A DNA stretch of 36,455 nucleotides from Prauserella cavernicola (GTDB lineage Bacteria > Actinomycetota > Actinomycetes > Mycobacteriales > Pseudonocardiaceae). The DNA lies in contig NZ_JAENJH010000017.1 of the NCBI RefSeq assembly GCF_016595675.1, positions 1 to 36,455 on the forward strand, written 5' to 3'. The position numbers and the translations under genes were made by a program. Positions 29,955-34,065 of this stretch are shown one piece after another. The notes below the pieces were generated by a model. That model had not been told where the DNA came from and made no database searches. It was given only the letters and a program-made list of their open reading frames with translations. Within the stretch, counting starts at the first letter, position 1, and each line of letters opens with the position of its first letter.

Positions 29955-32372
29955 ATGAACACCCTCTTCGATCTCCCCTCGGAACCGGGCAAACACGCGG
30001 ATCTGCTCGACGATCTGAACCCGGCACAGCGCGCTGCCGTGGAGCACAGCGGACCGCCGCTTCTGGTCGTCGCGGGCGCGGGCTCGGGCAAGACACGGGT
30101 GCTGACCCGGCGCATCGCGTACCTGCTCGGCGCGCGGAACGTGCACCCCGGCCAGATCATGGCCATCACCTTCACCAACAAGGCCGCGGCCGAGATGCGC
30201 GAGCGGGTCAGCGAGCTGGTGGGGCGCCGGGGCAACGCGATGTGGGTGTCGACGTTCCACTCGATGTGCGTGCGGCTGCTGCGGCGCGAGGCGAAGACAC
30301 TCGAGATGTCGTCGAACTTCTCGATCTACGACGCCGACGACAGCAGGCGGCTGATCACGCTTGTCGCGCGCGATCTCGACCTCGACCCCAAGCGCTACCC
30401 GGCGCGGGCGCTGGGCGGGCACATCTCGAACCTGAAGAACGAGCTGCTCGACGCCGAGACGGCGGCTGCGAAGGCCGCGAACGACTACGAGCGCAGGGCA
30501 GCCGAGGTCTACGGGGAGTACCAGCGCAGGCTGGCGCAGGCCAACGCGATGGACTTCGACGACCTGATCATGCGCACGGTGGAGCTGTTCCAGGCGTTCC
30601 CCGACGTCGCGGAGCACTACCGCCGCCGGTTCCGGCACGTGCTGGTCGACGAGTACCAGGACACCAACCACGCGCAGTACACGCTGGTGCGGGAGCTCGT
30701 CGGCACGGAGCGGACCGAATCGGGTGTCGAGCCGTCCGAGCTGTGCGTCGTCGGCGACGCGGACCAGTCGATCTACGCGTTCCGCGGCGCGACCATCCGC
30801 AACATCGAGGAGTTCGAGCGGGACTTCCCCGCGGCCCGAACGATCCTGCTGGAGCAGAACTACCGGTCGACGCAGACGATCCTGTCGGCGGCCAACTCGG
30901 TCATCGCGCGCAACCCGAACCGGCGGGACAAGCGGCTGTGGACCTCGTCGGGCGACGGCGAGAAGATCGTCGGCTACGTCGCCGACAACGAGCACGACGA
31001 GGCGGCGTTCGTCGCGAGCGAGATCGACGCGCTCGCCGACCAGGGCGAGGTGAAGTACTCCGACGTCGCGGTCTTCTACCGGACCAACAATCAGTCGCGG
31101 GTCTTCGAGGAGATCTTCATCAGGCTCGGCCTGCCGTACCGCGTGGTCGGCGGCGTCCGCTTCTACGAGCGGCGTGAGGTCAGGGACGCGCTGGCGTACC
31201 TGCGAGTGCTGGCAAACCCCGAAGACACCGTGAGCCTGCGGCGGGTGCTGAACGTGCCCAAGCGCGGCATCGGCGACAGGGCGGAGGCCGTCGTGGCCAC
31301 CCACGCCGAGCGGGAGCGCATCTCGTTCGCGGCGGCGCTGCGCGAGGCCGTGGCAGGCAACGTGCCGTTGCTGAACCCCCGTTCGCAGCGGTCCATCGCG
31401 TCCTTCGTGCAGTTGCTGGACGGGCTGTACGAGCTGGTCGAGTCCGGGGTCGAGGTGGCCGACGTGCTGGAGGCGGTGCTGGAGCGCACCGGCTACCGCT
31501 CCGAGCTCGAGGAGTCCGAGGATCCGCAGGACGCCTCCCGGCTGGAGAACCTGGACGAGCTCGTCACGGTCGCGCGTGAGTTCACGGAGTTCGCCGACAC
31601 CGTGCTCGAGGAGCAGGCGGAGGCCGAGCAGGACGTCGACGACGCCGTGGGCGTGCCGGAGCCCGGTTCGTTGCCCGCGTTCCTGGAGCGGGTGTCGCTG
31701 GTCGCCGACGCCGACTCGATCCCCTCGCCCGACGGCGAGGACGGTGAGGACGGTGAGGAGGACGCCGGGGTGGTCACGCTGATGACGGTGCACACCGCGA
31801 AGGGACTCGAGTACCCGGTCGTCTTCGGCACCGGCTGGGAGGACGGCGTCTTCCCTCACATGAGGGCGCTCGGCGAACCCGCTGAGCTGGCCGAGGAGCG
31901 CAGGCTGGCCTACGTGGCCATCACCCGCGCCCGGCAGCGTCTCTACGTCTCTCGCGCCCTGGTCCGGTCGGCGTGGGGGCAGCCGATGACCAACCCGGCC
32001 TCGCGGTTCTTGGACGAGATCCCCGCCGAGCTGCTCGACTGGCGGCGGCTGGCGCCGTCGAACGGTTCCGGCTCCGGCGGTGGTTCGCCGAGGGCCGCCA
32101 CGACGTGGGGCCGCAGGTCGGGCTTCGGCGACGACTCGGCTCAGGCCGGGATCGCGGCCAGGGGTATGCGCAGCACGTCGTTCAAGGGCTGGAAGGACAC
32201 GGTCGCACTGAACCTGGACGTCGGCGATCGCGTGAGCCACGACAAGTACGGCCTCGGTACGGTCGTGTCCACCGACGGATCGGGTCCCCGGGCCACGGCG
32301 ACCATCGATTTCGGCGCGTCGGGCAAGGTGCGGTTGATGCTCATCGGCAGCGTGCCGATGGTGAAGCTCTAG
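29955..32372 (+). CDS. pcrA: ATP-dependent DNA helicase PcrA/UvrD1
   Basis: A superfamily 1A 3'-5' helicase (805 aa) for nucleotide-excision repair and replication/transcription conflicts. The motifs are in order: Walker A AGAGSGKT (40-47), ITFTNKAA, motif II VDEYQD, motif III GDADQSIYAFRGA, QNYRS, then motif V VHTAKGLEYPVVF and motif VI AYVAITRARQRLYV. An acidic insert (DGEDGEDGEED) precedes motif V. The C-terminal 60 residues (GDRVSHDKYGLGTVV to the end) form the Tudor-like domain that contacts RNA polymerase in PcrA. It is orthologous to mycobacterial UvrD1. The ATG start has no strong ribosome site. A UUCG-type terminator follows. Confidence 0.97.
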   Translation: MNTLFDLPSEPGKHADLLDDLNPAQRAAVEHSGPPLLVVAGAGSGKTRVLTRRIAYLLGARNVHPGQIMAITFTNKAAAEMRERVSELVGRRGNAMWVSTFHSMCVRLLRREAKTLEMSSNFSIYDADDSRRLITLVARDLDLDPKRYPARALGGHISNLKNELLDAETAAAKAANDYERRAAEVYGEYQRRLAQANAMDFDDLIMRTVELFQAFPDVAEHYRRRFRHVLVDEYQDTNHAQYTLVRELVGTERTESGVEPSELCVVGDADQSIYAFRGATIRNIEEFERDFPAARTILLEQNYRSTQTILSAANSVIARNPNRRDKRLWTSSGDGEKIVGYVADNEHDEAAFVASEIDALADQGEVKYSDVAVFYRTNNQSRVFEEIFIRLGLPYRVVGGVRFYERREVRDALAYLRVLANPEDTVSLRRVLNVPKRGIGDRAEAVVATHAERERISFAAALREAVAGNVPLLNPRSQRSIASFVQLLDGLYELVESGVEVADVLEAVLERTGYRSELEESEDPQDASRLENLDELVTVAREFTEFADTVLEEQAEAEQDVDDAVGVPEPGSLPAFLERVSLVADADSIPSPDGEDGEDGEEDAGVVTLMTVHTAKGLEYPVVFGTGWEDGVFPHMRALGEPAELAEERRLAYVAITRARQRLYVSRALVRSAWGQPMTNPASRFLDEIPAELLDWRRLAPSNGSGSGGGSPRAATTWGRRSGFGDDSAQAGIAARGMRSTSFKGWKDTVALNLDVGDRVSHDKYGLGTVVSTDGSGPRATATIDFGASGKVRLMLIGSVPMVKL

Positions 32373-32380
32373 GTACTTCT

Positions 32381-32409
32381 TTCGGGTGAGCCGCTTCGGC
32401 GGCCCCGAA
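32381..32409 (+). terminator. Terminator after pcrA with UUCG tetraloop
   Basis: The outer TTCGGG/CCCGAA stem and inner GCCGC-TTCG-GCGGC hairpin are separated by a 3-nt bulge. It starts 9 nt after the pcrA stop. It ends 29 nt before the LexA box, isolating the next gene from pcrA read-through. Confidence 0.75.
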
Positions 32410-32438
32410 ACTGTCGTACCTCCACGCTAACCTTCTGT

Positions 32439-32454
32439 TCGAACACAAGTTCGA
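32439..32454. promoter_or_regulatory. LexA-binding SOS box
   Basis: TCGAAC-ACAA-GTTCGA is a perfect match to the actinobacterial LexA consensus TCGAAC-N4-GTTCGA, and one more T/A pair extends each side. A -10-like TAACCT (32428-32433) lies directly upstream, so bound LexA would block the start of transcription. It is 18 bp before the 32472 start codon. Confidence 0.9.
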
Positions 32455-32471
32455 AGGACGGGGCGACTGAG

Positions 32472-32774
32472 GTGGCCCCGGAACTGGGGGTAGCCGGTGT
32501 GGAGCGATGGTTTCAGGCGATCGGCGAGGGCGTTGCTCACTCGCTCGACGAGCTGCTCGATCGCGCTCTGGCGGAGGGTGGGCCGCTGGCGCCGGATGTC
32601 GGCAGGCTCGTCTCGGCCTGGAAGCTCCTGTTGCGGCTGCACGGCCGCACCGGGCGCGGAGGCTGCCGGGAGTGCGGGCGGGCGCAGGGGAGGCGCCTGT
32701 GCGCGGTGTGGCAGGTCGCCGTGGGGTACTTCCTCCGGCGGCTGCCGGAGGCTGAGCGGTCGAGAAGGGGCTGA
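32472..32774 (+). CDS. Small Cys-containing protein, probably SOS-induced, unknown
   Basis: A 100-aa soluble protein, family not recognised. The first 60 residues are helical (WFQAIGEGVAHSLDELLDRAL and VSAWKLLLRLHGRTGRG). Then comes a possible metal site: C65, C68 and C77 (CRECGRAQGRRLC), perhaps with H57, followed by an aromatic helix WQVAVGYFLRRL. The GTG at 32472 follows GACGGGG; a GTG at 32499 is an alternative. A near-perfect LexA box covers its promoter and a terminator shields it from pcrA, so it should be induced by DNA damage as a separate unit. A repair-related role is inferred from regulation only. The stop is 7 bp from the convergent M23 gene. Confidence 0.78.
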   Translation: MAPELGVAGVERWFQAIGEGVAHSLDELLDRALAEGGPLAPDVGRLVSAWKLLLRLHGRTGRGGCRECGRAQGRRLCAVWQVAVGYFLRRLPEAERSRRG

Positions 32775-32781
32775 GGCCCGA

Positions 32782-33606
32782 TCAGACCGAGACGCCGCGC
32801 TCCGCGAGCCACGGACGCGGGTCGACCTTCTGGCCGTCGGCGGTCCACACCTCGAAATGAAGGTGGGGGCCGGTCGACTGACCGCGGTTGCCGATCTCGG
32901 CGATCTGCTCGCCGGCCTTCACCCGCTGGCCCACGCTGACGTAGTAGTCATTCACGTGGCCGTAGACGTGGATCGTGCCGTCGTCCATCTGGACGCGGAC
33001 CCACATGCCGAAGCCGCTGGCCGAGCCGGCCTCGATCACGGTGCCGTCGGCGGCCGAGACGATCGGGGTGCCGATGCTGTTGGCAATGTCGATGCCGTAG
33101 TGGGTCGTTCCCCACCGGGCGCCGAAGCCGGAGGTGAAGCTGCCTTCGGCGGGAAGAACGGTCTTGGGGCGGGCGGCCTCTTCGGCGGCCCTGCGAGCGG
33201 CCTCGGCCTCTGCCGCGAGGCGGGCGTCGGTCACCTCGGTGCTCTCGGTGAGGCGCTGCACCTCGGCCGAGGCGTCGGTCGTGCGGGTCACCTGGAGAAG
33301 CTCGGGGGCGCCTGCCGGGGCGCTGCCGCCCATTCCGAACGAGGCGCTCGCGTCACGAGCGTTCGCCAGCGGCGTCACGTCGGTGTGCGAGTCAGTGCTG
33401 GAGCCCGTGGCGGCCTGGAGAGTCTGTCCAGCCGCGGCGGCGGCGAACGCGCCGGCGGCGACAGCCGCGACCACAACGCGGCCACGCAGGGCCGAGGAGG
33501 GCGCGGGGAGCCTATGGGAACCCCGGACACGAACGACGGCACCGTCCAGTGCGTCTTCGATCGCCGGGGAAGGAGCTTGGCCGCCGGGGGAGCGGTGTCG
33601 AGCCAA
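32782..33606 (-). CDS. M23-family peptidoglycan endopeptidase
   Basis: A membrane-anchored or secreted LytM-type zinc peptidase (274 aa) that cuts peptide bonds in peptidoglycan. A hydrophobic segment at 43-60 acts as signal or anchor, followed by a linker and a short coiled-coil-like stretch (AEVQRLTESTEV to AAEEAARP, 114-147). The M23 domain spans 150-274. Zinc ligands H169 and D173 (HYGID) and H250 (HLH), plus catalytic H217 and H248, are all present, so it should be active. It is positioned as mycobacterial Rv0950c between uvrD1 and sucC. A TTG start at 33606 is chosen because GGAAGG sits 7 nt upstream; a longer open frame to 33810 has no such support. Confidence 0.9.
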   Translation of the reverse strand: MARHRSPGGQAPSPAIEDALDGAVVRVRGSHRLPAPSSALRGRVVVAAVAAGAFAAAAAGQTLQAATGSSTDSHTDVTPLANARDASASFGMGGSAPAGAPELLQVTRTTDASAEVQRLTESTEVTDARLAAEAEAARRAAEEAARPKTVLPAEGSFTSGFGARWGTTHYGIDIANSIGTPIVSAADGTVIEAGSASGFGMWVRVQMDDGTIHVYGHVNDYYVSVGQRVKAGEQIAEIGNRGQSTGPHLHFEVWTADGQKVDPRPWLAERGVSV

Positions 33607-34065
33607 GACAGAGCCTTCCGTTACTCGGGGAGCCAGATCTCTGGACGCCGGGCGGGGGATCCCGGTGAGTGGTAATCGGGGGTAACCACTCTGTGGCGTG
33701 CCGGCCTCGGGGGGAGACCTGCCCACCAGTCCGCTCGTGACCTGACCGTAATGGGGACTGCGGGACAGTAACGAAGGGGCGCGGGCGGGAGCAAGATGCA
33801 GCCCTCGCATGGGCCGAACGAGGCAGGGTCTCGGAGGGGCGCGCGACGGAATGACACAAGGTCGGAAGGGGGTTGCTCCATTCGGTGTGACTTGCGTTAC
33901 ATAAGCGCAACCGTGCGACTAAACAACGGAAGTTCGGGGAACAAGGTCAAGTTATTTCGGTCCGGAGGACCGTTGCTAGCGTCGGCACGGACCCGGTCCA
34001 CTTGACCTACCCACGCGAGCCGTGAGCGTTCGTGCGCCACGTTGCTAGTCACCCGAGGTGAGCTG
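33607..34065. other. Divergent intergenic region with palindromes
   Basis: 459 bases between the M23 gene and the 34066 leader. On the M23 side a 7-bp hairpin (GAGTGGT/ACCACTC, 33667-33691) lies in the 5' leader. A near-palindrome at 33892-33910 (TTGCGTTA-CA-TAAGCGCAA) is a likely operator. On the other side there is a 6-bp hairpin (33958-33972), and TAGCGT (33977-33982) may be a -10 for the 34066-35843 genes; AAGGTCAAG (33943-33951) and CTTGACCT (34001-34008) are inverted around it. No c-di-AMP riboswitch signature was found. Confidence 0.5.

Follow-up and report, generated by a model that had tools for sequence, protein, structure and literature searches.

Is the small gene that follows pcrA in Prauserella cavernicola part of the response to DNA damage, and what might its product do? 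A first-pass annotation of a 36,455-nucleotide stretch of this genome (contig NZ_JAENJH010000017.1; hereafter the window) had drawn attention to a small Cys-rich protein of no recognised family encoded behind a LexA box. We examined its reading frame, its promoter, its neighbours and its relatives, and weighed what they suggest about its function.

A small conserved gene between pcrA and an M23 peptidase gene

The gene (32499..32774, plus strand; stop TGA 32772-32774) lies between the same-strand gene of a UvrD/PcrA-type helicase (pcrA, 29955..32372, an 805-aa frame named by sequence reading) and a convergent gene of an M23-type peptidase (32782..33810, minus strand, with a putative start; a 342-aa frame, its family also named by reading). 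Its position directly behind pcrA, as first described, is common among relatives: in a set of 72 orthologue loci, one per genome from 20 genera and biased towards recognisable copies because mostly better-scoring matches were chosen, pcrA lies upstream on the same strand in 63 and the M23 gene is convergent in 70. All 72 loci were retained in these counts and none extends further than about 1.5 kb upstream, so that a missing pcrA is no proof of its absence.

The terminator previously proposed between pcrA and the small gene corresponds to a terminator-like hairpin at the 3' end of pcrA (32372..32420, plus strand; RNA fold -24.3 kcal/mol, z -3.21, with equally good folds in 2 of 200 shuffles). 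It contains no T-run, and its 3' arm overlaps a promoter element described below. At the other end, only 7 nt separate the stop codon of the small gene from that of the M23 gene (32772-32784); no obvious terminator lies between them, and the transcripts of the two genes therefore probably overlap. The two genes themselves overlap in 13 of 70 loci, a count that leaves out one frameshifted locus, and gaps of up to several hundred nucleotides separate them at other loci.

The reading frame is probably shorter than the 100 aa originally assigned from GTG 32472, a codon that is GCG in relative L040 (Prauserella flavalba). An ATG or GTG occupies the position of GTG 32499 in 21 of 27 listed starts from the relatives and the window's own gene, mostly behind a G-rich stretch; the window has the Shine-Dalgarno sequence GGGGG at 32486..32490 (plus strand), and a similar stretch stands ahead of the equivalent start in most relatives. 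This start gives a protein of 91 aa. The six exceptions (L013, L042, L043, L045, L046 and L047) form the Prauserella group g33, where a proline codon at this position means that the start must be further upstream; the LexA boxes of this group lie 181-367 nt ahead of the matched stretch. With dN/dS values of about 0.19 against L040 and about 0.27 against L041, the 91-aa frame is, to judge from its codon substitutions, under purifying selection. These values, the orthologue alignment, the conserved residues and the structural model presented below mark it as a real, conserved gene.

A LexA box conserved upstream of the small gene

The window holds a single LexA box without mismatches, TCGAACACAAGTTCGA at 32439..32454 (plus strand). 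The perfect box reported earlier is thus confirmed. The genome of 7,209,600 bases contains eight further exact boxes, nine in all, compared with one match for a reversed control pattern. Five of the eight others precede or adjoin genes that we take, having read their translations by eye, to encode ImuA', DnaE2, DnaB, SbcD and radical-SAM proteins; exact boxes in this genome thus often point to damage genes.

The first-pass annotation had suggested looking for the box upstream of orthologues, and there it is widely kept. The best upstream box is exact in 43 of the 72 loci, with one mismatch in 17, two in 2 and at least three in 10. A box with no more than one mismatch is therefore present in 60 of 72 loci; when the 420-nt upstream sequences were replaced by first-order Markov versions in 200 rounds, such a box appeared on average in 0.13 loci and in at most 2. 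The central 4 bp of the box vary between genera. As previously stated, the box lies at the promoter; given the -10-like TAACCT (32428-32433) just upstream, however, it is expected to sit over the transcription start and not over the promoter as a whole. On sequence evidence, the presence and conservation of the box place the small gene in the LexA (SOS) regulon, under predicted LexA control.

The genome encodes two LexA homologues (L160 and L161), both above the family cut-off. Three one-mismatch boxes stand in front of the lexA gene at L160, whose divergent neighbour is a LysM-like gene with a hydrophobic stretch that presumably resembles Rv2719c, and no box better than three mismatches occurs in 3.6 kb at L161.

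A PafBC-type element adjoins the LexA box

Immediately upstream of the LexA box lies a second control element, which the first reading had missed: a PafBC/RecA-NDp-like promoter core, TGTCG-N11-TAACCT (32412..32433, plus strand). The available part of PMC5656591 gives the PafBC/RecA-NDp motif as tTGTCRgtg-8nt-TAnnnT, and that of PMC8151990 gives the Mycobacterium tuberculosis variants TGTCGG, TGTCAG and TGTCAC ahead of N10-TA-N3-T; the element in the window agrees with the published motif in core and spacing, with the weak gtg part unmatched. The core has a single match in the window, with 0.21 expected by chance and at least one match in 19 of 100 shuffles, so that this occurrence alone proves nothing. 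Across the orthologue loci, a core within 420 nt is present in 31 of 72 (control mean 0.81, maximum 4), and among the spacings of 6 to 17 that were tested, 11 is the commonest (31 loci), followed by 13 (16 loci, some of them through the same TATA stretches).

We then considered the joined pattern, a PafBC core followed by a perfect LexA box, which occurs in 173 of 390 Pseudonocardiaceae genomes and 26 of 46 genera; its reversed counterpart gave zero among the matches listed for these 390 genomes. The only joined site in the window's own genome is the small-gene promoter, and in relatives the pattern also precedes genes read as ImuA'-, DnaE2- and HEPN_SAV_6107-type. The own recA carries a one-mismatch LexA box and CTGTCGGACCCCGCCCGTAACGT upstream, and the genome has a PafC gene (PF19187 HTH_PafC, 139.5 bits against a cut-off of 32). 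In combining an SOS box and a RecA-NDp-type element in one upstream region, the small gene resembles mycobacterial recA, one of the mycobacterial genes described in the accessible text of PMC8223512 as being under double control by LexA and PafBC. Unlike those genes, which encode known repair proteins, it encodes an unrecognised small protein. With both elements in one promoter, the two damage pathways would meet there, and because of the PafBC-type element the link to DNA damage that was first drawn from the LexA box is stronger than had been claimed.

Of the 72 loci, 62 have a strict PafBC core or a LexA box with no more than one mismatch, and 30 have both. The ten loci with neither (five in g8, two in g22 and one each in g21, g27 and g31) have, as a post hoc observation, a TGTCR located 56-91 nt ahead of the profile start, and four of them (L093, L065, L077 and L059) carry the full TTGTCGGTG. 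This distribution suggests that damage control may be retained across loci while its agent, LexA or PafBC, changes. Could the motifs instead be chance or lingering matches in front of a gene without damage control? The box is lost at some loci, and some promoters, described below, are found without the protein; set against this, the controls are near zero for the box, the core and the joined pattern, and a paralogue of the gene has neither element at any of 11 loci. We regard this explanation as extremely improbable.

Genes of the HEPN_SAV_6107 type stand behind joined promoters in several genera (L126, L147-L149, L154, L155, L159, L163 and L174). One of the proteins was confirmed by Pfam and the remainder were named by reading; the product is possibly a damage-induced HEPN protein. 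Further joined promoters precede unnamed genes at L145 and L146 (genus g21), L131 and L151 (g58) and L168 (g5).

Joined promoters without a recognisable protein

Forty-three distinct joined-pattern sites were opened, chosen largely because no orthologue was listed there, and 15 of them adjoin the M23 gene. The family protein is encoded at three of them, the window and two divergent copies, L152 and L153. The other 12, from a sample whose selection favoured such sites, gave no profile match to it (L140-L144, L157, L164, L166, L167, L169, which is the same site as L175, L170 and L171). Eleven of the 12 also have pcrA, the exception being L144, and L166 comes from the same genus as the window. 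The protein has therefore repeatedly been lost or altered past recognition, and at these sites the promoter either lingers or serves something else; the lack of a recognisable protein at 12 of 15 promoters counts against a vital role. Aligned with the window, the DNA of L166 scores 82.6 against a shuffle maximum of 34.2, with the promoter kept and the coding part poorly aligned, and a g33 pair scores 79.3, slightly above its shuffles at 65.7. Both alignments would fit decay or very fast divergence.

Promoters that persist in this way raise the question of whether transcription itself is what matters, with a damage-induced transcript antisense to the M23 gene, or a small RNA, as the functional product and the protein as secondary. 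Such a role would also suit the 7-nt spacing of the stop codons in the window and the gene overlap in 13 of 70 loci. It is very unlikely, however, in view of the purifying selection on the protein, the HCCC residues kept in 71 of 72 loci, the gaps of several hundred nucleotides before M23 elsewhere, and a terminator-like inverted repeat, seen by eye, that precedes M23 at L140-L143.

A single new protein common to the promoter-only sites was considered but is not claimed, as their short reading frames differ between genera. In the pcrA-M23 gap of genus g15 (L140-L143), a mutually similar short frame lies behind the joined promoter in place of an HCCC protein; it begins MWxTG or MVRNG, contains ACAATS and has a good Shine-Dalgarno sequence in front, and it may be either a new small SOS protein or debris.

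A putative zinc-knuckle protein outside described families

The Pseudonocardiaceae are an antibiotic-producing family of soil bacteria, and in our searches the small protein is restricted to them. A 19-sequence profile matched at E 1e-6 in 310 of 390 Pseudonocardiaceae genomes, a count that mixes the SOS gene with its paralogue, and in a phylum sample of 296 genomes it matched only the window's own; the profile of the paralogue behaved likewise.

In agreement with the first-pass annotation, we found no family match for the protein in Pfam, NCBIfam, PHROGs, PADLOC or the sequences of the PDB. Foldseek searches up to E 10 returned 4 PDB matches and 18 viral ones, of which none reached E 0.001. 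Weak matches of single members to ribosomal protein S14 (E 0.0074 and 0.017) were judged to reflect a shared Cys-knuckle look and not homology. WhiB-like proteins are likewise small, Cys-rich, helical proteins of actinobacteria; unlike their four Cys, the small protein has three Cys and one His, and none of 19 members matched a Whib model in Pfam at E up to 1, so membership was rejected. No paper describing the protein appeared among the best-ranked matches in the open-licence literature, which leaves most subscription journals outside. Within the searches made, it represents an undescribed family.

The CxxC-x8-C motif noted earlier is present, and His48 ahead of it, missed at first reading, completes an HCCC set (His48, Cys56, Cys59 and Cys68). 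Conservation of the Cys residues had been named as a check on the annotation; the whole set is kept in 71 of 72 orthologue loci, and the exception, L024, looks frameshifted. Residues W42, L46, H49, the three Cys, W72, A75, F79 and R81 (in profile numbering, which is window numbering plus one) are kept in 65 to 72 of the 72 loci. From this conserved ligand set, which is that expected of a zinc-binding HCCC site, we infer that the protein binds zinc. An AlphaFold2 model made from the window protein and nine named relatives (mean pLDDT 85) predicts helices at 3-26 and 31-47, consistent with the helical N-terminus proposed before, followed by the knuckle and a short helix. With a calculated pI of 10.6, the basic charge and the conserved residues would suit a binding module better than an enzyme.

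These features also bear on the possibility of a damage checkpoint protein that delays cell division, as small lineage-specific SOS inhibitors do elsewhere. Small SOS proteins restricted to one lineage are often division inhibitors, SosA and DidA among them as far as the accessible accounts go, and the small protein resembles these two in being small, predicted to be damage-controlled and confined to one lineage. The corresponding actinobacterial mechanism is called still unidentified in the available part of a paper on Streptomyces venezuelae LexA (PMC9380542). Unlike SosA and DidA, the protein has an HCCC knuckle and matches neither of them in sequence or fold, and no membrane-spanning stretch is seen by eye or in the AlphaFold2 model. 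The genome moreover already has the LysM-like gene with a hydrophobic stretch divergent from lexA, and a checkpoint role is decidedly unlikely.

A paralogue beside an HTH regulator gene

The genome also encodes a paralogue with the same HCCC module (L081:8112-8561, contig C22; hhalign probability 98.6, E 9.6e-16 against the SOS family), which itself matches no described family. It lies beside a gene for a TPR-HTH regulator (L081:6100-7515, contig C22), an adjacency found in 11 of 15 loci tested as well as in the own genome. Unlike the small gene, the paralogue has a different neighbourhood and no damage-control element: none of the 11 loci beside TPR-HTH genes has a box better than three mismatches or a PafBC core. 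A more distant relative in the own genome (hhalign probability 69) adjoins an HTH-DUF5753 gene.

These neighbourhoods raise the possibility that the small protein, as its paralogue may do, partners an HTH transcription regulator, linking DNA damage to altered gene expression and not to repair. The SOS copy, however, has no adjoining HTH gene, its neighbours being pcrA and M23, and neighbourhood is weak evidence of function; we consider this reading unlikely.

A model for the small protein in the damage response

Combining these results, we consider the small protein a strong candidate for a so far unrecognised factor of the damage response. The explanation that we tentatively prefer, and to which we assign somewhat less than an even chance, is a small, damage-inducible zinc-knuckle binding protein of the damage response, restricted to Pseudonocardiaceae, repressed by LexA and activated by PafBC. 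LexA bound over the transcription start would repress the gene until RecA-driven loss of LexA opens it, a step with strong sequence support. PafBC, which is activated by single-stranded DNA according to the available part of PMC11804915, would act through the TGTCR element to bring RNA polymerase to the promoter, likewise with strong sequence support across relatives. The 91-aa product would then consist of two long helices and a short third one, with a zinc knuckle of His48, Cys56, Cys59 and Cys68 between them. In the last and weakest step, the knuckle and the helix surface may bind nucleic acid or a partner in repair or replication, tuning damage tolerance without acting as an enzyme; PcrA would be the first candidate partner, by adjacency only, and any repair role is conjectural. 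Against this explanation count the 12 of 72 loci without a box of at most one mismatch, the 12 of 15 opened promoters beside M23 without a recognisable family protein, the unmatched gtg part and lone insignificance of the PafBC core in the window, and the paralogue, which adjoins an HTH regulator gene and no repair gene. A bolder version, rather unlikely as it stands, is that the protein is a new fold and family, a LexA/PafBC-switched zinc-knuckle modulator of PcrA (for example of its RecA-filament or RNA-polymerase functions) through which Pseudonocardiaceae would balance repair against mutagenesis.

If the preferred explanation is true, the Pseudonocardiaceae would own a damage-response effector at a fixed place in the genome, under a promoter responsive to both damage pathways. 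The gene would offer a way into what small SOS proteins do in actinobacteria, where damage-linked division control is described as unidentified for Streptomyces (PMC9380542). It would likewise offer one into the evolutionary exchange of control between LexA and PafBC, given that a PafBC-type element is kept at loci that lack the LexA box.
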